Shown: positions 1-20,333 of the stretch, piece after piece
How the letters are laid out: the number at the start of each line of letters is the position of its first letter
How positions within the stretch are numbered: the stretch's first letter is position 1
DNA from: a virus
Virus record (IMG/VR): IMGVR_UViG_3300032431_000039
Location: 1 to 21,161 of that record
Strand: one strand, 5' to 3'
DNA: 21,161 bases
Program-made: the position numbers and the translations under genes
Notes under the pieces: generated by a model
Databases searched by the model: none
Seen by the model: only the letters and a program-made list of their open reading frames with translations
What the model was told of the DNA's origin: nothing

Positions 1-516
1 GATAAGACAGTTCTCAAGGTCATTAAAGGCCTTAACGGCGTTTATCGCGAGCTGCACTCGGAGACTCACAACAAGACCGACGACATCCTCCTAGCTCGCA
101 TCATTCGCGACGCGTTCGAGGTGCATGGGTGCCAGCGCGTTGCGATTGACGGCACTGGCATGGGCTCGTTTCCTGCCAAGGCGGCTCGGCGTGACTACGG
201 CTCGAAATTGGAGGTCGTCACGTTCACGGCGCCGCTCAAGGAGAGCCTCGCCACTGGCATCTATCAGGCCATGGTCACGGGCAAACTGGAGCTGTGCAAG
301 GATGCGCCAGAGGCAGTGCAGACTCGCGACGACCTTGCCTCCATTCGGCGCATCGTCACCACGGCTGGCAACGTACGTTTCGACGCCGCGCGCAACGCTA
401 GGGGGCACGCAGACAGAGCTTGGGCACTCATGCTGGCCCTGCATGCGTCCGAGCACGCTGGGGTGCGCACGGCGTACTCTGACCTCCGTGGCATACTCGG
501 CAGGTCAATCGGGTAG
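1..516 (+). CDS. Large terminase subunit, C-terminal part (Mu gp28-like), truncated by window start
   Basis: The frame is open from base 1 to a TAG at 514-516, giving 171 residues; the start and the ATPase domain lie outside the window. What remains is the RNase-H-fold nuclease domain of a DNA-packaging terminase, which cuts the DNA and loads it through the portal. Visible marks are an acidic residue in the segment AIDGTGMG (D50 of this fragment) and the closing GHADRAWALMLA segment (D138). These fit the metal-binding acidic positions of Mu gp28-like terminases. The protein ends 43 bases before the portal start, as in Mu-like head clusters. The family assignment rests on these motifs and on the adjacent portal. 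An ATG at 121 is in frame but internal to the domain and is not the real start. Confidence 0.88.
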   Translation, partial: DKTVLKVIKGLNGVYRELHSETHNKTDDILLARIIRDAFEVHGCQRVAIDGTGMGSFPAKAARRDYGSKLEVVTFTAPLKESLATGIYQAMVTGKLELCKDAPEAVQTRDDLASIRRIVTTAGNVRFDAARNARGHADRAWALMLALHASEHAGVRTAYSDLRGILGRSIG

Positions 517-559: not shown

Positions 560-2368
560 ATGCTAAATTCACTCCCAGAATTGGTGACCCTAGACGGCGC
601 GCAAATCCCGAAGCGCTCCGCGGCGCGCATGCGCATCGAGCAGTGGACGCCTGGCATTTCTGTCACTTGGTCGCCAAGCGATTTGCGGCAGGCGGTGGCC
701 GACAACCGACGCGGCCTATTCTCGCGCTCGTCTCAGCTGGCCGAGTCGATGCTGGCTGATGACGAGTACACGTCGAGCCTCAATCGAGCGATCGACGAGG
801 TTCTGTCGTCTCCATTTTCACTCATGCCCGAGACCGAGGACGGCGACCCCATCTCAATCTCGGAGTTGATTGCAGAGCAGCTCGGCGCGCAGTGGGGTAA
901 ATGCATCACCGAAGAGGCCATGGCCTCGATTCTAGGCTGGTACCTGGGCATTGGCGCGGCCGTAGCCACCATCGACTGGGACAAGGAGTGGAGGCCGTAT
1001 CTGCGCGTCCTACACCCACAATTCATGTGGTGGGACTCCGAGATGGTGAACGCGCGCGGTCAGCTCGGCGCGATGATGTACCAGACGCGCAACGGCGCAG
1101 TTGAGATCACGCCTGGCGACGGCAAGTGGTTTTTGATGGGTTCGCGAGAGTCCTGGGCGTCGTGCGCCGTTGCTGCCATCGGCGAAAACTGGTTCGTCAA
1201 GCGGTGCGCTTGGCGCGACTGGCAGCGCTACAATGAGCGCCATGGCCTGCCCATCATCAAAGCATTCGTGCCGTCGAGCGCTGAGGCTCAGGACAAGCGC
1301 TCGTTCATCCGCGACGTCTCGCGCGTTGGCTCTGACACGACCGTTGGTCTACCGACGCACCTCGGCCCAGACGGTGAGCAGTTTGATTTGGACCTGTTGG
1401 AGGCCAAGGATCTGGCCTTCGATTCGTTCGAAAAGACCCTCGCGCGCTGCGACCGCAAGATTCAGATCTTCTTCCTCGGCAGCAACGTCGGCTCCGAGAC
1501 GACCAGCGTTGGTTCGCGCGCCGCATCTGAGGCGTCTGCTGACGTCACCAAGCGCATTGCGTCCTCTCGGGCACGGCGTTTCGGCACCTACCTGCGAGAC
1601 CAACTGGTGACTCCGTGGGCGCTCTGGACGGTGCCTGGTGCCACGCTCGATGCGATGCCGTGGCCGAGCTGGCAGGTCATTGCCGGCCTCGAGGAGAGCA
1701 CGTCTATCCGCTGGGGCGCGGTTGCCGACGCTATCGCCAAGTGGTCGACGGCTGGGTACGACGTCAAAAACGCCATCGACATCGCGGCCGAGCTGGGCTT
1801 GACGGTGGAAGAGAAACCCGCTCCCGAGCCCGGCGCCATTGACCCCAAAACAGGCATGCCTGTGCCGCCTCTCATGGTGCCTGCTGAGCCCGGCATGCCA
1901 GCCGAGTCTGTACCCGCCGAGTCTTTACCCGCCGAGGAGGAGGCGCTCACTGCCGGCGGTCTGGATTTTGGCCAGGTCCTGGGTCGGCACCGGCGCATTG
2001 CCATTGTCGGTGGGCCAAGGGTCGGCAAAACAACGCTGTCCAAGCGCGTCAGTGACCGCAAGGTAGTGTCCACGGACGATTTCATGCGCCAGCCATGGGG
2101 CTCTGTCCCGACGCTCATTCAGGGCGCCGTAGCGCTCGAATCGGCGTTTATCGTGGAGGGCGTCCAGGCGGCTCGGTTTTTACGCAAGGGCGGACAGGTG
2201 GACGCCGTGATTCGGCTCGACCGCCCCAAGGTTCCGCGGACCAAAGGCCAGGAGACCATGGCCAAATCGGTCAACAAGATTTTTGACCAGTGGGCGAGCA
2301 GCAACAGGTCGACGCCGGTCTACCTGGAGCACGAGACCAGCATGGGGCCACGGTTTCGCCGAGCCTGA
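560..2368 (+). CDS. Portal protein (Mu gp29/DUF935-like) with C-terminal P-loop kinase-like domain
   Basis: This 602-residue protein starts at ATG 560. The open frame runs upstream to 125, but that part overlaps the terminase and reads as shadow sequence. Residues 1 to about 418 look like a DUF935 portal: an RG-x-QLAESML-type N-terminal helix region, a WRDWQRYNERHGLP segment, and a late segment rich in R, S and A before TPWALW. The portal forms the dodecameric ring at the capsid vertex. Residues about 419-475 are a Pro/Glu linker with a short tandem repeat. Residues about 478-602 form a second domain: Walker A GGPRVGKTT (G484-x4-G489-K490-T491), STDDF at 504-508 and FIVEG ending at E533-G534, a layout like small P-loop kinases. 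Mu gp29 is about 510 residues and lacks this tail. The portal call is good; the activity of the P-loop domain is unproven. No clear Shine-Dalgarno precedes the ATG. Confidence 0.88.
   Translation: MLNSLPELVTLDGAQIPKRSAARMRIEQWTPGISVTWSPSDLRQAVADNRRGLFSRSSQLAESMLADDEYTSSLNRAIDEVLSSPFSLMPETEDGDPISISELIAEQLGAQWGKCITEEAMASILGWYLGIGAAVATIDWDKEWRPYLRVLHPQFMWWDSEMVNARGQLGAMMYQTRNGAVEITPGDGKWFLMGSRESWASCAVAAIGENWFVKRCAWRDWQRYNERHGLPIIKAFVPSSAEAQDKRSFIRDVSRVGSDTTVGLPTHLGPDGEQFDLDLLEAKDLAFDSFEKTLARCDRKIQIFFLGSNVGSETTSVGSRAASEASADVTKRIASSRARRFGTYLRDQLVTPWALWTVPGATLDAMPWPSWQVIAGLEESTSIRWGAVADAIAKWSTAGYDVKNAIDIAAELGLTVEEKPAPEPGAIDPKTGMPVPPLMVPAEPGMPAESVPAESLPAEEEALTAGGLDFGQVLGRHRRIAIVGGPRVGKTTLSKRVSDRKVVSTDDFMRQPWGSVPTLIQGAVALESAFIVEGVQAARFLRKGGQVDAVIRLDRPKVPRTKGQETMAKSVNKIFDQWASSNRSTPVYLEHETSMGPRFRRA
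1898..1939 (+). repeat. Short tandem repeat encoding the portal linker
   Basis: Two 15-base units and a partial third (1898-1912, 1913-1927, 1928-1939) encode PAESV, PAESL and PAEE. They sit in the Pro/Glu-rich linker that joins the portal body to the P-loop domain and probably make it flexible and extended. Confidence 0.75.
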
Positions 2369-2403: not shown

Positions 2404-2691
2404 ATGAGTCGTAATCGGACTGAGCAACAATTCGAGACCCGTGGTGAGGGGCACGCATCGTCTGCCTTGAGCGAGGCTCTGGGTGACAAGAGCGAGGTAG
2501 ATCCTCCGGTGCTTCGCCCGACGGTGGGCCGTGACCGTGAGGTCGAGTCCGATGATGACTTCGTGCTGCCGGCTGCCCAGCCGCCCAGCGCAGTCAACCT
2601 GACTCGCCAGTCACTGGCCTCGATGGTCGGCGACGCGCGCGCTCTTGAGATGATTCCCCTGTCGCCTGGAGAGCCCGGTTATGTCGGTTGA
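2404..2691 (+). CDS. Hypothetical 95-residue head-region protein
   Basis: I do not recognise this protein. It starts at ATG 2404 behind a good ribosome site (AAGGA at about 2393-2397) in a short AT-rich gap of 35 bases after the portal. Composition is polar and acidic, rich in E, D, S and P, with SDDDFVLPAAQPP in the middle and a possible short helix near residues 68-80 (RQSLASMVGDARALEM), so much of it may be disordered. Its end overlaps the protease start by 11 bases, implying coupled translation. In Mu the MuF-like gp30 gene sits between portal and protease; this protein has that position but shows no MuF features and is far too short. A head accessory or scaffold-associated role is only a guess from position. 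Confidence 0.7.
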   Translation: MSRNRTEQQFETRGEGHASSALSEALGDKSEVDPPVLRPTVGRDREVESDDDFVLPAAQPPSAVNLTRQSLASMVGDARALEMIPLSPGEPGYVG

Positions 2692-3592
2692 ATTCGAGCA
2701 GCTCGGCGCATTCGGTTTGCTCGGAGACGAGCCGCCGACCGAAATCAAGCTGTTCAGCTTCGGCACCACGGCGACTCGCAAGGGCTCGTTCGTGCTCGAC
2801 GCCGCGGGCGCTGCTTCGGTCATGGAGGCGTTCGCCGATGGCGGCATGGACCGCCTGCCGTTTGACGCTGGCCACGGCCAACTGGCTGGTTCGGGTGCCC
2901 ATCCGGCGGCTCACAAGAGCAAGGGGTGGTTCCTTCCTGAAGTGCGCGTGGACGGCCTGTATGCCTCCGATATCCAGTGGACCAAGAGCACCAAGGCAGA
3001 GCTAAGCGACCGTGAGTGGCGCTTTTTCTCGCCAGCAATCCGGTTCGACGGCGCGAGCCGACGGATCCTCGAATTGATCAATGTGGCCCTGACTAATCAG
3101 CCGGCCACCAAAAATCAGCGCCCGTTGGTGCTGAGTGCAACCCCTGAAAAGGCAGACGAAATGAAACCCATCCTGGAGAAGCTCGGCGCAGCCGATGAAA
3201 CCGGTGCGCTCGCTGCGATCACCGGATTGGAGGCCCAACTGAGCATGGCTACGGCCGAACTCAGTGCCGTTACTGGCGAGCGAGATTCGCTCAAGACGCA
3301 ACTCGCAACGCTCACCGCTGCGGCGGTCAAAGAGAAGCGCGACGCTGCTATCACCAAGCTCATCGAAGACGGCAAGCTCGCGCCGGCTCAGAAGCCGTTT
3401 GCTGAGTCGCTTTCGATGGAGCAGCTCGGTCAGTTTGCCGAGACGCTCACTGCCATTCGGCCCGTCTCTATCGAGAGCGGCACCGAGATCGCGACCCTCA
3501 GTTCTGAGGAACTCGATGTGTGCGCGAAGCTCGGAATTAAGCCCGAAGATTTCCTCAACACCAAGGCCTCGGCCAAGAAAGGTGGCCGCTAA
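2681..3592 (+). CDS. Prohead protease (Mu gpI-like)
   Basis: This 303-residue protein matches the Mu I protein family, the maturation protease that removes the scaffold from the prohead. The protease part (about 1-150) has the family's LPFDAGHGQ segment (D62, H65), then GLYASDIQWTKSTKAEL and EWRFFSPAI, ending with INVALTNQPA. The C-terminal half (from residue 161) is charged and helical, with a likely coiled coil near residues 185-230 (MATAELSAVTGERDSLK). It is also the probable separate scaffold, made from an internal start. ATG 2681 overlaps the previous gene by 11 bases; the TAA stop overlaps the next ATG (TAATG). Length and order agree with the family. Confidence 0.9.
   Translation: MSVEFEQLGAFGLLGDEPPTEIKLFSFGTTATRKGSFVLDAAGAASVMEAFADGGMDRLPFDAGHGQLAGSGAHPAAHKSKGWFLPEVRVDGLYASDIQWTKSTKAELSDREWRFFSPAIRFDGASRRILELINVALTNQPATKNQRPLVLSATPEKADEMKPILEKLGAADETGALAAITGLEAQLSMATAELSAVTGERDSLKTQLATLTAAAVKEKRDAAITKLIEDGKLAPAQKPFAESLSMEQLGQFAETLTAIRPVSIESGTEIATLSSEELDVCAKLGIKPEDFLNTKASAKKGGR
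3161..3592 (+). CDS. Putative head scaffold (Mu gpZ-like), internal in-frame start within the protease gene
   Basis: An in-frame ATG at 3161 (M161 of the protease) follows a good ribosome site, AAAAGG at 3147-3152, with an 8-base spacer. It would give a 143-residue protein identical to the protease C-terminus, opening with MKPILEKLGAADETGALAAI. That start resembles the N-terminus of Mu-family scaffolds. In Mu the scaffold gpZ is known to be produced from inside gene I in this way. The product is charged, mostly helical and probably coiled-coil, as expected for a protein that templates the capsid and is then degraded. Seen: start, ribosome site and frame. Inferred: that the site is used. Confidence 0.65.
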   Translation: MKPILEKLGAADETGALAAITGLEAQLSMATAELSAVTGERDSLKTQLATLTAAAVKEKRDAAITKLIEDGKLAPAQKPFAESLSMEQLGQFAETLTAIRPVSIESGTEIATLSSEELDVCAKLGIKPEDFLNTKASAKKGGR

Positions 3593-4038: not shown

Positions 4039-4926
4039 ATGATCATTACCCCTACGACTCTCCAAAATCTCCAAACGGGATTTTCCACCTCCTATCAGCG
4101 AGGCTTTACCCAGACTCCGCAGTTCACCGACGCGTTCACCATGACCGTGCCGTCGACTACGGACCTGGAAACCTACGGCTGGATGCTTGATTTGGCGGAC
4201 CTCCGCGAGTGGGTTGGCCCTCGCTTGATCCGCAACTTCGTGACTGCCTCCTACCAGATTCGCAACAAGAAGTACGAGTTGACCTACGGCGTGAGCGTCG
4301 ACGAAATCGAAGACGACCGCCTCGGTCTCTACGACATGAAGTTCGAATTGATGGGCTACCGCTCGAAGGTTTGGAAGGACAAGCTTCTTGCTGTTGCTCT
4401 CCAGGCTGGTGTTTCCACGGCTTCGTTCGACGGCGTGAATTTCTTCGCTACGACCCATCCGCTCAACCCGGCCGGCAACCAATCGAACAACTTCACGGGC
4501 TCGGCTCTCACGCCCACGAACTACAACACCGTCCGCACGTCGATGATTGGCTACACGAGCAACAACGGCGACAATCTGGGCATCATGCCCAACCTGTTGG
4601 TCGTTCCTCCGCAGCTCGAGATTGCGGCTCGGGAGATTGTTTCGATCCCGACGGTCGCAGCCGGCGGCGGCAACCCGTACTTCGGCACGGCTCAGGTTTT
4701 GGTCGTCCCGGCTCTCGCGAACCAGGCAACCACCTGGTACCTCATGGACACGTCGAGCCCGATCAAGCCCCTGGTTTTCCAGGTGCGCCAGGCTCCCATG
4801 TTCGCTCAGCAGACGTCGCCGGATTCGGACGCTGTCTTCCACCAGGACATGTACTTCTACGGCGTAAAAGCCCGTGGCGGCGCAGGCTACGGGCTCTGGT
4901 TCAATGCAGCCCGCGCAATTGCCTGA
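4039..4926 (+). CDS. Major capsid protein (Mu gpT-like)
   Basis: This 295-residue protein belongs to the Mu gpT major head subunit family (HK97 fold). It starts at ATG 4039 behind a strong ribosome site, AGGAG at 4025-4029. Recognisable parts are the N-terminal LQTGFSTSYQRGF, the YELTYGVSVDEIEDDRLGLY segment of the long helix region, FFATTHPLNPAG in the middle, and PNLLVVPPQLE. The C-terminus VKARGGAGYGLWFNAARA is typical of gpT. The strong ribosome site and the hairpin just downstream (4946-4975) suit a gene that must be made at high level. Some 415 copies or more per virion are expected for the fold, but the triangulation number cannot be read here. Confidence 0.93.
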   Translation: MIITPTTLQNLQTGFSTSYQRGFTQTPQFTDAFTMTVPSTTDLETYGWMLDLADLREWVGPRLIRNFVTASYQIRNKKYELTYGVSVDEIEDDRLGLYDMKFELMGYRSKVWKDKLLAVALQAGVSTASFDGVNFFATTHPLNPAGNQSNNFTGSALTPTNYNTVRTSMIGYTSNNGDNLGIMPNLLVVPPQLEIAAREIVSIPTVAAGGGNPYFGTAQVLVVPALANQATTWYLMDTSSPIKPLVFQVRQAPMFAQQTSPDSDAVFHQDMYFYGVKARGGAGYGLWFNAARAIA

Positions 4927-6579: not shown

Positions 6580-8073
6580 ATGCCCAATAACCCCGCCTCA
6601 AATATTACGATTGTAGATCCTGGGCTTGGCGTCACGACGCCCGCTCAAATGCGCCCCATTGTGATGGGCGTCACCAACGCTGGCACGGCCAACGTGCTCA
6701 ATTTTTACTCGTCTCCGGCCAAGCTTGTCGCCGAGATGGGCTACGGCCCAGCGGTTGAGGATGCTCTGCAAATCCTCGCCTACGCCGGCGGCCCGGTTGG
6801 TTTCGTCAAAACGGCCAATTCGGTGGCAGCCACCAATGGTGCCATCACCAAGTCAGCTGGTGGCCCCACGGTCACGCTTGCTGGCGCGGCTTCATTCGAT
6901 TTCTCGGCCATCGTAGAAATCACTCTCGCCGGCGCGCTTGGGGTTGGCAAATTCCGCTACACTCTGGACGCCTACGCAGGAGATACGCTCGAAGAGCGCA
7001 CCTATTCGGGCACCATCACGATTCCGGCCGGCGGAACCTACCTCATCCCGGGCACCGGCATCACGCTGACGTTCCCGGCTGGCACCTACGTGCTGGCTGA
7101 AACCTACAGCTGGACGAGCAACGTTGCCTCGTTCAACGGCACCGACGTTACCGCGGCACTCACGGCAATCAACGCGAGCCCCCTCGCTTGGCGCTTCCTG
7201 TTGCTCTCGGCGTCGACGCTCACGGGCAACGCGGCTACCACGGCGGCCCTTTTGGCCACGCTCCAGAGTTCGCTCGCCACTCAGGAGGCAAACGAGCGAT
7301 TCCGCGCAGCCATGGCCCCCACGACTGGCGATCGCACGGTGCTACCGGCCGCTGTAGTCACGGCCTACTCGGCCACTGTCGCCAATCGTGAGCTGATCGC
7401 GCACGGCTACGCTCGTTACGTCGGGCAGTTTCAGCTTCCTGGCAGAGCCTACGTTGACCGTCCGGTCGTCGTGAGTTTTGCAGCCCGAGCGGCTGGCTCT
7501 CTGATTTCGACTGACCTCAAGCGCGTCGTCGGAAACGGCCTCAATGACGGCGGCCCGTTGCCTGGCGTCATCAAGCTGTTTTTCGACGAGCGCGTGGACG
7601 CATCGTTGCTCGACGACATTTACATCAGCACGGCGCGGACGTACGACGGCCGGCCCGGTTATTTCATCACTCAGGGCCGCATGAAAATCGCCGCTGGGTC
7701 GGACTTCACCGGCTGGCATCGGCGCATGGTCATGGACGTTGCTTGCGAGACGGCTCACTCGATCGCTGTGACGTTCATCGGGCGCGGCGTTCGCACGAAC
7801 GCGATCGTTGGCACCATCGACGAGCGGGACGCGCTCAGGCTGGAGTCTGAGGTCATCAACGCGGTCAGCTCACAGTTGATCTCGCCTCTCAACGCAGAGG
7901 GATCCGGCGGTCACGTGTCGGGTGTCAGTTACCGCATCGATCGCACGATCAACATTCTGGCAACCGCCACAATCCAGGGCGACCTGGGCATCAGGCCGCT
8001 CGGCTCGGTTGACTACATCCTCACGCGAGTCGGCTACTCGCTCAATGCTGGCGCCGAAACGGCCGGAGTCTAA
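6580..8073 (+). CDS. Contractile tail sheath protein (DUF2586-like)
   Basis: This 497-residue protein is the tail sheath, which surrounds the tube and contracts to drive it into the host. It begins with a short beta region and the PIVMGVTNAGTANVLNFY segment. A glycine-rich beta module follows (residues about 96-181), holding GTGITLTFPAGTYVLAETYS. The conserved sheath core then runs to the end, with GYARYVGQFQLPG near 280, a DDIYISTARTYDGRPGYFITQ-type segment (residues about 345-365), and a C-terminal LGIRPLGSVDYILTRVGY. Length and place (directly ahead of the tube) are as expected. The inserted module is also present in the second fibre protein at 19374. The ribosome site is weak. Confidence 0.85.
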   Translation: MPNNPASNITIVDPGLGVTTPAQMRPIVMGVTNAGTANVLNFYSSPAKLVAEMGYGPAVEDALQILAYAGGPVGFVKTANSVAATNGAITKSAGGPTVTLAGAASFDFSAIVEITLAGALGVGKFRYTLDAYAGDTLEERTYSGTITIPAGGTYLIPGTGITLTFPAGTYVLAETYSWTSNVASFNGTDVTAALTAINASPLAWRFLLLSASTLTGNAATTAALLATLQSSLATQEANERFRAAMAPTTGDRTVLPAAVVTAYSATVANRELIAHGYARYVGQFQLPGRAYVDRPVVVSFAARAAGSLISTDLKRVVGNGLNDGGPLPGVIKLFFDERVDASLLDDIYISTARTYDGRPGYFITQGRMKIAAGSDFTGWHRRMVMDVACETAHSIAVTFIGRGVRTNAIVGTIDERDALRLESEVINAVSSQLISPLNAEGSGGHVSGVSYRIDRTINILATATIQGDLGIRPLGSVDYILTRVGYSLNAGAETAGV

Positions 8074-16195: not shown

Positions 16196-16816
16196 ATGCC
16201 TGGAAATATCACTGACGCGAACGTTTTTACAGATCCAGTCAACACTCCGCTCGATGGAGAATCAGCAAACGGTTCGAGCGTTCTCGATGCTCTGCAAGAC
16301 CTGGCGAACCGAACGCGGTTTCTGAAGAACCAGGTGGATGCGACCAATGCAACGGCGGCGTCTGGGGCAGTAATCCGGTCTCAGTGGGCTGAGTACAGGA
16401 TGACTGGAGACCCGGTAGCTGGCTCCGGCGAGCCAACCTTGACCGAGTTGAGTGATCCTGCGGCAGCGTATTCCCTGGTGGCAGATCGAATCCAGGTTCC
16501 AGCCGCCGGCACGTATAGGGTCAGCGCTGGGTTTAGCGCAAAAAGCGCGGACACGGGCGCCAGCAAAAGACTGCGTGTCCTTTTGAGAAAAAACGGGCTC
16601 ACCACTGGTGACACCACCTACTCGCATTTTATCACTCGCGCCCTGAATGATGTCGATGCATTCGCAGAGGGGTCAATGACTGGGATGTTCATCATTACCA
16701 CGCCCGCCACCGAACGAATCAACGTAAATTTTTCAAACTCCACCGGCAATATCGCTCTTCAGGTGTCCGGCGCTGACCAGAAATTCAACTGGATCTTGAT
16801 TGAGCGGACGGCATAA
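16196..16816 (+). CDS. Tail fibre / receptor-binding-type protein
   Basis: This 206-residue protein starts at ATG 16196 with GGAG at 16187-16190. The N-terminal part, FTDPVNTPLDGESANGSSVL followed by LQDLANRTRFLKNQVDATN, resembles the baseplate-attachment segment of many phage fibres, including the typical 'LANRT.FLK.QV' helix. The C-terminal 120 residues form a beta pattern with AAGTYRVSAGFSAKSADTG and KRLRVLLRKNGLTTGD, like C1q/TNF-type or other jelly-roll heads that bind surface sugars. No enzyme motif is seen. It probably bridges the baseplate and the larger spike encoded next. The stop overlaps the next ATG (TAATG at 16814-16818). Confidence 0.72.
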   Translation: MPGNITDANVFTDPVNTPLDGESANGSSVLDALQDLANRTRFLKNQVDATNATAASGAVIRSQWAEYRMTGDPVAGSGEPTLTELSDPAAAYSLVADRIQVPAAGTYRVSAGFSAKSADTGASKRLRVLLRKNGLTTGDTTYSHFITRALNDVDAFAEGSMTGMFIITTPATERINVNFSNSTGNIALQVSGADQKFNWILIERTA

Positions 16817-19377
16817 TGGGCGCCCTAGACAACCTCATGGGCAAACACGTCATTGTAAATGACGTGCCTCTACCGGACCGCAAAACCGTGCGTTTTGCCG
16901 GCGCCGTCACGGCCTCCGACTCGCCAAGCGAGAACACGACTGACATCGTGATCGCCTCCGGCAGTGGGACACAGAACCTCTCAAGCGTGCTCGGAATCGG
17001 CAACAGCGCGGCAGGCGAGCAACTGAAAAACGTGGGCGCCGCAACGGACCCGAACGACGCGGTAACCAAGCTCCAAAGCGACGGCATTGCCGATGCTCGC
17101 ATTGACCTCCGCGAGTACGCCACCATGGCGCTCTCGCGCGCGATCGCGCCTGTGAGCGGACGTCGAACCATCACCAAGGGGTTCGCTGCGGCTGGCGATG
17201 GCGGCGGAGGCCAGTGGCTTGATGTTACCGGAGCCGCGCCTGGTACCCACGTCCACAACGGCGGCACGGTCATCGTGCCGATTGCCGGCGATGGTAGCGC
17301 GGCGAAGCTTCGGCAGAGCTGGACCGAAGTGGACGCACGCTGGTTCGGCGCGGCTCCGACGGCTAGCGGCGCGACCAATCATGCAGCGTTTGCGGCGGCA
17401 CTGGCGCTGGGTAAGCCGCTCGTAATCTCCTCCGATACCTACACGATTACTGGCGCGACGCTCGTGGCAACGGCTGCAATCAGGGGCACCGGACCAGCCA
17501 CGGACGCTGGGTCCAAACTCGTGTGCGGCGCATCACTCGCTGGACCCATGCTGCGATACTCTGTCAGCGGCGGGCGCATGTCGGGATTCACCGTGGACGG
17601 CGCGAACCTCGCCGACATTTGCATCGAGATACTGAACTCGAATATTTCGTCTCACGACAGCATCACGGTTATTCGAGCCCGGTACGATGGCGTGCACTAC
17701 CCGATCGCAGGTAACAACCTGGGCACGGTCTGGACCGCGCTTAAAGCGATGTTCTGTGGGCGCCATTACACGACGGGCACGGTCACTGCCGCGGCCGGGG
17801 CCACCGTCATCACGGTCACGGGCGCCGCGGACCTCACGACCATCGGGATCCGCGAATCCTTCGACTCAATTTATTTTGATGCGGAGCGCACCGCCGACGT
17901 TGCTGGCGGCGAACTGTGCGGGCTTGTGCACGACGTCTCGGTGCTAAACGCTACGCAGCTTACAATCTATCCACCGCTCACCACCGCACTGACCGCAGCG
18001 ACGTTTTCGGTCAACATGGGATCGGGCGTCAACATTGGTGCGCACAGCATCAATGGCTCGATGCGTTTTATATCCCCGCTATTTTTCGAGAATGCCGACG
18101 CGGGATTGCGCGACGCGGGCCTGTTCGGCGCAACCGTCATAGGCGGAATTTACGAGCACAACCACGCCGTTGGCCGCCAACTCGGCCGCCAACTCGGGAC
18201 CGCGGCCAACAGCACCGGTGGCACGGATGTGGGGCCGCATTTTGAGGCGTCGTTTGGCGGCTCGTTTCAGTACGCATTTTGCTACCGCGTGCAACTGCTC
18301 CCCGGCATGTCGACTACTTTATTCGCGGGGAATGAGCACCCGGCGTTTCGGGTGTGGCCGTTCTCTCACGGTCCCCCGTCGCATTCGGAGTGTAACGATT
18401 TCCGCTCAATCAGCGGGGACACGGCCGTGCTGGCCCAGAGATTCAGCGGGAGGATCGGTCTGATTGTAGCCACGGCCCGACTAGTGCTGCAGTCTGGAGG
18501 CCTAGGCAATTTCCAGGACGGAGAAACTTACTACTTCAAGTGCCGCGCGAACGTCCAGATCATTGCAGGCGCCGGGGCTACGGTCTCAGGGCGCCTACTC
18601 TACGGCAACGGGTCGACAATTGAATGCACGCACATGGGCGGCGGGGAGTGGTTCGTTAGCGGCGGCGGCGGTTACTGGACGTCGACCACTGCCGCGCAGC
18701 CAAGCGCGCCGCTGTTCACCAACGAAACAATCCTGCTGACCGACGGAAATCCGGACAGTGGATCCCCGTCGCTCGTGACCAGTGCGGCCGGCGTTTGGCG
18801 CCGCTCCGACGGCAACATCGCGCAAGCCGGCCTCTACGTCCCATACCTGACGTATCCCAACGGCCGCAGCGTTGCTGGCAAAGCGGCAGCGGGTGCCGGG
18901 CTTGGCGACGAGATTGGGCTCACCGACAACACGGTGCTCGCGGCGCTCGGGTCGGCGGCGATCTCGGCACAGAAAGTCACGGACCCTCTGTGCGCATTCG
19001 CGAGCGCGGACGGGAAGGTGCTCGTCGAGCGGGTGTCTCCCGGCGCAGCAACCGACTCGGCGTCGCTGGCCAACGCGGCCACTCTGCTCCTCAGCTACAC
19101 GACGGCCACGAACCGAGACCATGCGTTGATTGCGGTTGTCAAAATGACCGTCGCCTCGGTGCGCTACGTCGTGCGGCTGGCAGTCGACGCGGAGAACGTG
19201 GCGGGCACCGTAGCGGTCTTGGGCCAGCAAGTGCTTGGCGCCTTGCCCGTCGGCGTCACGCTCGTGGCCAACGTGAGCGGCACCTCCGTTCGCGCGGCAC
19301 TGCTCAATAGTACGGGCGCGGCCATCGGCCCCATCCGCATGCGTTGGAGCCGCGCGACAGTCGAGGACCCTTCGTGA
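16816..19377 (+). CDS. Tailspike with pectate-lyase-like beta-helix
   Basis: This 853-residue protein is the largest in the window. Residues about 1-95 form the anchor, with a segment GEQLKNVGAATDPNDAVTKL typical of fibre N-termini. A segment with VDARWFGA (V172-A179), then TNHAAFAAALALGKPLVISS and DTYTITG, is the usual opening of a pectate-lyase-type right-handed beta-helix. The helix continues with Gly/Asn turns to roughly residue 600. The C-terminal 250 residues are beta-rich and may trimerise or bind receptor. Such spikes usually cut or bind surface polysaccharide; I cannot identify catalytic residues. The gene starts at ATG 16816 by TAATG overlap and ends overlapping the next GTG. The host sugar cannot be inferred. 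Confidence 0.82.
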   Translation: MGALDNLMGKHVIVNDVPLPDRKTVRFAGAVTASDSPSENTTDIVIASGSGTQNLSSVLGIGNSAAGEQLKNVGAATDPNDAVTKLQSDGIADARIDLREYATMALSRAIAPVSGRRTITKGFAAAGDGGGGQWLDVTGAAPGTHVHNGGTVIVPIAGDGSAAKLRQSWTEVDARWFGAAPTASGATNHAAFAAALALGKPLVISSDTYTITGATLVATAAIRGTGPATDAGSKLVCGASLAGPMLRYSVSGGRMSGFTVDGANLADICIEILNSNISSHDSITVIRARYDGVHYPIAGNNLGTVWTALKAMFCGRHYTTGTVTAAAGATVITVTGAADLTTIGIRESFDSIYFDAERTADVAGGELCGLVHDVSVLNATQLTIYPPLTTALTAATFSVNMGSGVNIGAHSINGSMRFISPLFFENADAGLRDAGLFGATVIGGIYEHNHAVGRQLGRQLGTAANSTGGTDVGPHFEASFGGSFQYAFCYRVQLLPGMSTTLFAGNEHPAFRVWPFSHGPPSHSECNDFRSISGDTAVLAQRFSGRIGLIVATARLVLQSGGLGNFQDGETYYFKCRANVQIIAGAGATVSGRLLYGNGSTIECTHMGGGEWFVSGGGGYWTSTTAAQPSAPLFTNETILLTDGNPDSGSPSLVTSAAGVWRRSDGNIAQAGLYVPYLTYPNGRSVAGKAAAGAGLGDEIGLTDNTVLAALGSAAISAQKVTDPLCAFASADGKVLVERVSPGAATDSASLANAATLLLSYTTATNRDHALIAVVKMTVASVRYVVRLAVDAENVAGTVAVLGQQVLGALPVGVTLVANVSGTSVRAALLNSTGAAIGPIRMRWSRATVEDPS
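18172..18195 (+). repeat. Perfect 12-base tandem duplication within the tailspike gene
   Basis: GGCCGCCAACTC occurs twice in tandem (18172-18183 and 18184-18195), encoding the duplicated tetrapeptide GRQL. It keeps the frame and looks like a recent slip duplication in a loop of the beta-helix region. Confidence 0.8.
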
Positions 19378-20333
19378 GCGTCTTAGACTACCACCGAGCA
19401 CAGGTGTTCAACCCGCTCTCGATCACGAGTTCTACGCCGTTCCTCTGGTGCGAAGTCGACCGAGGCACGACGTTCTCGGGCGACGCGATCGCTGCTGGTA
19501 CCACGCCGCCCGTCGTGACGATTACGGGGGTCAACTCGCCAACGTTCCCAACGATCAAAGTCCGCATTCCCGCCGGCGGTGCACGCGGCACGGCGACGTA
19601 CGAGACGAGTTACGATGGCGTGCTTTGGAGCACGGCGGCCGCAACGCTCGCGTCTGTGGTGGTGGGACCGTTTACGATCAATTTCCCCGTCGGCACGTAC
19701 GCAACGAACAACACATACGACGCGAATCCGCAGACGCTGAACGACATGACAGCGGAGGCAAATCACCTGAGCGCGGCAGCCGCGACGGGCCCGCTCATTG
19801 TGCCCAACGCATTGGGCGGGCGCGCGGGATTCACGGCCGCCGCGTCGCGGTATTTCGTGCGCACTGTGCTCACGAACTCGCGCGCGGTGTCGGGGCCCAT
19901 GACGATCATCGTCATCGGCAGAACCCCCGCTTCGACCGGCGGCGTGATCATCGCAGGCGGAGTCAACTCTATGCGCGACCTACGCACAGACGGCGCGGGC
20001 GCATGGGGGCTAGTCTCCACTGCCGTCGGCAATATCTCCCCTACTGCAGCGGCGGAGATCAATCGAGACTTCCAACTCTCCGCGAGCTGGGATGGCGTTA
20101 ATTCGCTCGGCGAGCTTCGGCAGCGGGGTCTGCCGACGGTGCGCGGTACTGCGAACCCAGTGGACCCTGCGTCACTTGCGCTCACAACGATCGCGTTCGG
20201 CGCGCACGGTACCGGCACGAACGTGGCCGTCAACTTCCAGCTAGCAGCGATCTTCGCTTGCGATGGCCTGCTGTCCGCCGGCGATCTGGCACGCCTCCGC
20301 GACGGCTTTGCACACCGCTACTCGATACTCTGA
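19374..20333 (+). CDS. Second tail fibre / LamG-like domain protein
   Basis: This 319-residue protein starts at GTG 19374, overlapping the spike stop (GTGA). The frame extends up to a TTG at 19344, but that part lies inside the spike gene. The N-terminal part holds a beta module (residues about 45-119), with YETSYDGVLWS and FTINFPVGTYATNNTYDAN, very like the module inside the sheath protein. The C-terminal 190 residues (GRAGFTAAASRYFVRTVLTN, TIIVIGRTPASTGGVIIAGG, FQLAAIFACDGLLSAGDLAR) have the run of strands and the late 'L..GDL.RL' segment of concanavalin A/LamG-like carbohydrate-binding folds. A host-surface sugar-binding role is inferred. Confidence 0.7.
   Translation: MSVLDYHRAQVFNPLSITSSTPFLWCEVDRGTTFSGDAIAAGTTPPVVTITGVNSPTFPTIKVRIPAGGARGTATYETSYDGVLWSTAAATLASVVVGPFTINFPVGTYATNNTYDANPQTLNDMTAEANHLSAAAATGPLIVPNALGGRAGFTAAASRYFVRTVLTNSRAVSGPMTIIVIGRTPASTGGVIIAGGVNSMRDLRTDGAGAWGLVSTAVGNISPTAAAEINRDFQLSASWDGVNSLGELRQRGLPTVRGTANPVDPASLALTTIAFGAHGTGTNVAVNFQLAAIFACDGLLSAGDLARLRDGFAHRYSIL

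Follow-up and report, generated by a model that had tools for sequence, protein, structure and literature searches.

A predicted P-loop kinase domain fused to the portal protein of an uncultured Mu-like phage and to other phage head proteins

The question raised by this locus is why a phage portal protein should end in what appears to be a small kinase, and whether this arrangement is peculiar to a single phage. The window (the whole stretch of DNA that was analysed, 21,161 bases) is the IMG/VR virus record IMGVR_UViG_3300032431_000039 and comes from an uncultured Mu-like phage. The initial annotation of this DNA described one uninterrupted frame in which a DUF935-type portal is joined, through a linker with PAES repeats, to a P-loop domain that could be located inside the capsid.

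The fusion gene and its surroundings

The fusion gene is found between the end of a terminase gene and a set of genes for head proteins, with the following features:

1–516, plus strand: terminase large subunit, C-terminal nuclease part (PF17289, E 3.4e-13), directly upstream of the fusion gene
560–2368, plus strand: portal–kinase fusion gene of 602 residues, one open frame from the ATG at 560 to the TGA ending at 2368
734–1768, plus strand: Mu-type portal core (PF06074, Portal_Mu, E 8.3e-37), residues 59–403
1814–1948, plus strand: linker rich in P, A and E, residues about 419–463, read from the translation, of low model confidence
About 1880–1946, plus strand: PAES-type repeats of the linker, read from the translation
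2404–2691, plus strand: 95-residue protein without Pfam match, in the place where Mu has MuF/gp30
2681–3592, plus strand: Mu gpI-like protease/scaffold (PF10123, E 5.8e-35)
4039–4926, plus strand: Mu gpT-like major capsid protein (PF10124, E 3e-77)

The order along the window is terminase C-terminus, portal–kinase, the 95-residue gene, gpI-like protease, a cement-like protein (a sub-threshold match) and gpT-like capsid protein. The succession terminase, portal, gpI protease and gpT capsid is shared with Mu-like phages (Mu gp29, JBD30 portal); in contrast to the Mu and JBD30 portals, that of the window continues into a kinase domain after residue 463 or so, and it is not followed by a MuF gene, given that PF04233 had no match in the 21-kb window. 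Further downstream, two long open reading frames without Pfam matches (16816–19377, 853 residues, and 19344–20333, 329 residues) probably encode tail-tip or fibre proteins.

The portal half proved to be a real Mu-type portal, as the DUF935 assignment had implied. Its match to PF06074 reached 127.7 bits against a cut-off of 23.9 in Pfam, and the best PDB matches for the portal part of the AlphaFold model were the JBD30 and Mu portals 8rka, 9knu and 9khx (E 2e-16 to 5e-15). The full-length model, which was read for the portal and the linker only given that its alignment had almost no kinase rows, is reasonable for the portal at residues 20–420 approximately. In the linker, where the PAES-type repeats are indeed present, pLDDT values are mostly below 70 and then below 50. 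The exact start of the gene is not certain, since the codon frame is open 5' of the ATG at 560 up to base 95 and a search for a clear Shine-Dalgarno site before this ATG found none.

The same in-frame fusion is present in two sister contigs, IMGVR_3300020219_000094 and IMGVR_3300020180_000153, which show approx. 95% DNA identity to the window and are 13 bases apart from each other. Relative to one of them, 56 bases differ in the portal part (47 at codon position 3), 6 in the linker, and 22 in the kinase part (19 at codon position 3); counted by codon, the differences in the kinase part are 18 synonymous and 3 replacement, and no indels separate the two sequences across the fusion. Given that the differences fall mostly at codon position 3 and that indels are absent, the portal and the kinase halves are kept as protein in one frame. 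The single frame described initially was therefore confirmed, with no stop or frameshift between its halves, and a sequencing error or frameshift artefact was rejected because the frame, under selection, is common to three contigs.

Fold and conserved residues of the kinase domain

The last part of the protein contains the following features:

1949–2365, plus strand: P-loop kinase-type domain, residues 464–602 (pLDDT 96.2, pTM 0.90; fold matches)
2009–2035, plus strand: Walker A, GGPRVGKTT, residues 484–492 (translation and homologue alignment)
2069–2083, plus strand: STDDF, residues 504–508 (D506 conserved, 44 of 46 homologues)
2147–2161, plus strand: FIVEG, residues 530–534 (E533 invariant, 46 of 46)
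2174–2188, plus strand: RFLRK, residues 539–543 (R539 and R542 conserved, 45 of 46)
2243–2269, plus strand: KGQETMAKS, residues 562–570 (Q564 in 45 and M567 in 44 of 46)

The Walker A, STDDF and FIVEG motifs are located where they had been claimed; the invariance of Walker A is partly due to selection, because GGP..GK formed part of the search pattern. We take STDDF to resemble the STGDM of adenylate kinase. In the 46-row alignment, K490, T/S491, D506, E533, R539, R542 and Q564 are each kept in at least 44 of the homologues, W513 is conserved in 42 and G534 in 45. Because catalytic-type residues are kept across these 46 homologues, the domain is predicted to be an active kinase, and this conservation makes catalytic activity likely.

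The structure of residues 464–602, modelled with AlphaFold2 from 46 rows, has a mean pLDDT of 96.2 and a pTM of 0.90. The best Foldseek matches are adenylate kinases, with a modest E value of 2.7e-4, and below them appear polynucleotide kinases, thymidylate kinases and nicotinamide riboside kinase. With VIA-align, the comparison with E. coli adenylate kinase (1ake) gave a Z of 10.0, with 3.0 Å over 123 residues, and that with polynucleotide kinase 4gp7 a Z of 9.6, two values that count as a tie by the rule of VIA-align itself; likewise, the family profile searched against the PDB reaches adenylate kinases and dephospho-CoA kinase. The structure prediction and fold search proposed with the initial annotation thus returned a confident P-loop kinase fold, and a chance Walker A within a long tail was rejected by the family of homologues and by the model with its pLDDT of 96. 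According to this model, residues 464–602 are a P-loop kinase in their fold, from which no substrate can be read.

Adenylate kinase and the other NMP kinases share with the domain the P-loop form GxPxxGKxT, the fold (Z 10.0) and the profile matches; in contrast, the modelled domain comprises about 135 residues versus 185–215 in adenylate kinase, and would be devoid of the NMP-binding and LID inserts, for which the order of secondary structures in the model leaves no room. The resemblance to polynucleotide kinases (4gp7, 4mde) extends over about 130 residues with a Z of 9.5–9.6 and an identity of 10–13%. Against Pfam, NCBIfam and PHROGs, residues 464–602 gave no family above the curated cut-off. 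The Walker A region alone gives weak AAA/GTPase matches, and the best sub-threshold Pfam match is AAA_18, with 16.7 bits versus a cut-off of 29.4; it is possible that such proteins were annotated earlier as generic AAA proteins in nr or the AlphaFold DB. Two Pfam candidates were discarded: adenylate kinase (PF00406) had no match listed at E up to 10 for the window protein, and zeta toxin (PF06414) had none for the window domain at the same limit. In the scan of 46 members, adenylate kinase families and PF06414 were absent from the 25 commonest families.

A kinase family attached to several head proteins

A degenerate DNA pattern covering the stretch VEG...KGQxxMA, suggested partly by phage kinases, led to locus L028, in which a separate kinase gene encodes a protein 47% identical to the window domain. 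Successive profile searches yielded 16, 22 and then 59 loci, and re-scanning with an HMM brought the number of loci with the domain to 62. Fusion of the enzyme to a head protein, the feature expected of polyvalent-type effectors, occurs in 20 of them, i.e., 8 portal, 5 MuF/head-morphogenesis and 7 scaffold fusions; this association with the head was not selected for, because the searches used the kinase domain only. The fusions are as follows:

Portal fusion, window: PF06074
Portal fusion, L099: PF04860, E 5.5e-45
Portal fusions, L121, L126, L130, L147, L151 and L164: phrog_146
MuF/head-morphogenesis fusions, L085, L086, L143 and L152: kinase in the N-terminal part
MuF/head-morphogenesis fusion, L136: kinase at the C-terminus
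Scaffold fusion, L119: phrog_206, E 6.5e-27
Scaffold fusions, L135, L128/L129, L084 and L124: assigned more weakly, by likeness to L119 or by position
Scaffold fusion, L123: assigned by position and kinase clade only

In all eight portal fusions the kinase is at the C-terminus of the portal; phrog_146 is also the best PHROG for the PF06381 portals of this set. The fusions encountered most frequently were those of the PF06381-type group, L121, L126, L130 and L147. In L085, L086 and L143 the kinase is inserted inside the MuF protein. Two of these proteins, encoded at L085:8449-11346 and L086:6670-9297, are MuF proteins of about 860–960 residues with the kinase near the N-terminus and a HEEAH metalloprotease-like motif near the C-terminus. 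The possibility that the kinase is a general replacement for MuF was rejected, since MuF genes coexist with the kinase in L121, L126 and L130; they were not found in the window and in several other phages.

A separate kinase gene lies directly 3' of the portal gene, or overlaps it, in L077, L080, L087, L097, L137/L138 and L149, where the protein upstream in L077 has no family match and is called a portal by its size, position and terminase neighbour only. The kinase adjoins a terminase, portal, protease or MuF gene in L073, L074, L075, L082, L083, L122, L133, L139/L140, L142, L145, L146 and L163. For approximately one third of the loci, no head gene was found with the queries used; given that L100, L103, L104 and L120 are among these, the family may not be restricted to the head. 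A distinct branch of kinases (L100, L101, L103, L104, L156, L162, L163 and L165) carries an additional insert (similar to VKxPExGVxYLP) behind the TD motif, and its members are mostly without head genes in the stretches examined; the portal fusions of L099, L151 and L164 fall within the same branch.

Some of these loci show other features. A histidine-phosphatase-like gene (MKILLMRHGFSGNQ...) directly precedes the kinase gene in the head module of L028:198-707 (L075:about 6600-7119). L083:4118-8566 encodes a portal of 1482 residues, with PF06381 at residues 44–409 and the kinase gene next to it, and the last 100–160 residues of this portal match minor-head and unknown PHROGs. In L084, a look-alike of proteasome-type Ntn hydrolases (MTCIAGAIKGDEVWIGADAVSVHSD..., 4128-4682), recognised by eye only, is located between the portal and kinase–scaffold genes. 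With the queries used, the domain was found among 50,697 records of phage isolates only in MW202476, itself an environmental phage. No relative of the portal turned up in the collection of genome contigs, and the matches that the kinase profile gave, in genomes of Clostridia and Actinobacteria, were all partial P-loop matches; 296 genomes of one phylum had no kinase match at E 1e-12 in a search run without a positive control.

By BLAST, nearly every pair of kinases from the eight portal fusions gives a match. On the other hand, there is no BLAST match between the portal of the window, that of L099, those of L121, L126, L130 and L147, and those of L151 and L164, with the sole exception of L121 and L164 at 20% identity. 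As an example, the kinases of L099 and L151 are 53% identical and their portals have different family assignments. On a quick tree of the kinases with 58 rows, the portal-fused state needs at least three changes on well-supported branches, the fused states overall need six, and the scaffold fusions form one tight clade. This pattern, drawn from sequence comparisons, indicates that the kinase domain was joined to portals at least three separate times. The view of the fusion as one odd protein is therefore too narrow, since the same domain occurs on several portals and on other head proteins.

A search for other DUF935 portals with the same tail had also been proposed. Among 80 loci with PF06074-type portals, the fusion was found only in the lineage of the window (L175, L176); in L177 (= L080) and L217 (= L149) the kinase is encoded separately, by an overlapping gene in the +1 frame, and the other 76 have no kinase within the stretch examined. 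Many Mu-type portals have other C-terminal tails, of 100–455 residues, and six of ten that were scanned carry the pyrophosphatase PF18823 (E 1e-25 to 3e-31):

L208:4824-5963, L226:1768-3132 and L199:2854-3750: portal with PF18823
L223:4761-5693, L228:4647-5537 and L230:4509-5456: portal with PF18823

In these six portals, PF18823 follows the portal core and is itself followed by a conserved helical segment at the C-terminus. An enzyme docking site therefore does exist at the end of Mu-type portals, with the kinase among its rarer cargoes.

At several loci a separate kinase frame or gene overlaps the portal end by about 50–190 bases (L080:8968-9080, L077:8983-9089, L087:6944-7002, L137:5839-6026 and L149:5893-5945), and in every case checked it is in the +1 frame relative to the portal. 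The overlap in L080 and L077 spans the Walker A codons, where the portal frame reads CCC and then C or A, and in L080 a Shine-Dalgarno-like GAGG precedes the ATG of the kinase itself. It is possible that a +1 frameshift makes a portal–kinase fusion in L080 and L077.

Known head-borne enzymes and the possible role of the kinase

The portal–kinase fusion belongs to a known theme, that of enzymes fused to phage head proteins. Pyrophosphatase (InPase), PBECR and 2H domains have been found fused to portal or MuF proteins and are thought to be packaged and injected, and a zeta-toxin-like kinase is fused to MuF (PMC5512222); likewise, Nudix, 2H and ADP-ribosyltransferase domains occur on portal or MuF proteins (PMC9503650), and MuF proteins with toxin domains have been described (PMC5576092). 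In the portal–InPase fusions, an example of which for PF18823 is gp124 of Burkholderia phage BcepF1 (PMC5512222), the enzyme is also on the C-terminal side of the portal core; there the enzyme is a pyrophosphatase followed by a helical segment, whereas in the window portal it is a P-loop kinase. MuF proteins with effectors likewise join a P-loop kinase or effector to a head protein, but the partner in the window is a portal and its kinase is not a Pfam zeta toxin. In the open-licence literature, no paper naming a portal–kinase fusion or this kinase family was found; nor did the literature and libraries searched contain the family or its joining to scaffolds and to several portal groups.

The C-terminal crown or barrel of portals of solved structure is directed into the capsid. 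Because the C-terminus of the portal points inward, and MuF-type and scaffold proteins are internal, the enzyme is probably located inside the head. The position in the capsid interior proposed in the initial annotation thus receives indirect support: the eight portal fusions are all C-terminal and the other partners are MuF-type and scaffold proteins. The protein would be a working portal subunit, whose C-terminus, facing the capsid interior, would carry, on a flexible tether, a small P-loop kinase resembling adenylate kinase. The kinase domain would be built into procapsids, with up to twelve per head, and would act as a phosphotransferase on a small molecule, a nucleotide or a nucleic-acid end. 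With less certainty, it may be carried in the virion as an early-phase effector that acts in the new host, after it has been freed from the portal, perhaps through cleavage by the head protease, and has travelled with the DNA. Delivery to the host is the more doubtful step and we propose it tentatively, because the kinase must first leave the portal; being covalently tied to it, the domain would not enter the cell unless cut off. Overall, an enzyme carried in the virion on the inner face of the portal is the best explanation, to which we assign a probability of about one half. The presence of a single fused lineage among 80 Mu-type portal loci counts against it.

A wider proposal, which seems rather unlikely, is that the domain represents a hitherto undescribed family of head kinases, which joins now a portal, now a MuF protein or a scaffold and works from within the particle. 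Up to twelve copies at the portal would control nucleotide state or phosphorylation state, either of the contents of the head or of the ends of the packaged DNA, or would be shed into the host as a kinase carried by the virion.

The main rival to host delivery is a role in assembly or packaging within the procapsid, where the domain, by binding or phosphorylating nucleotides, DNA ends or a head protein, would make portal closure, packaging or ejection dependent on nucleotide state. The portal, MuF-type and scaffold partners all act in assembly, and the polynucleotide kinase fold is nearly as close as that of adenylate kinase. Scaffold normally leaves the head before maturation; the scaffold fusions, confined to one tight clade, favour this role since they point to a use in assembly and not in ejection. 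Nevertheless, with one lineage fused and two with an adjacent gene among the 80 Mu-type portals, the kinase is no core component of packaging, and its sharing by unrelated portal groups suggests an accessory cargo, so that we regard this role as improbable.

Still less probable is that the kinase is a cytoplasmic gene for nucleotide metabolism or counter-defence in the phage-making cell, with the fusions as read-through events of little function of their own. Some members of the family are away from head genes, and close unfused relatives directly follow or overlap the portal gene (L080, L077, L087, L097, L137, L149), so a small indel could fuse them; however, fusions arose several times and with three kinds of head protein, even inside MuF (L085, L086, L143), and in the sister contigs of the window the linker and both parts are in frame under selection. 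Loss of catalysis, leaving the domain to bind NTP or to serve as a structural plug in the inner end of the portal, would suit its length of about 135 residues versus 185–215 and the absence of the large inserts (NMP-binding and LID) seen in adenylate kinase, but is very improbable given that catalytic-type residues are kept across 46 divergent members and that the domain also occurs as a separate protein.

Returning to the virion-carried enzyme, the significance of the fusion lies in the existence of a P-loop kinase family that Pfam, NCBIfam and PHROGs do not list as such and that is repeatedly attached to the inner machinery of the head. If present in virions, it would be a tool for establishing how portal-borne enzymes reach their target, i.e., by cleavage, by ejection or by action in the head, and the same question applies to the known portal–pyrophosphatase fusions. 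The fusion also marks the C-terminus of the portal as a common docking place for accessory enzymes.
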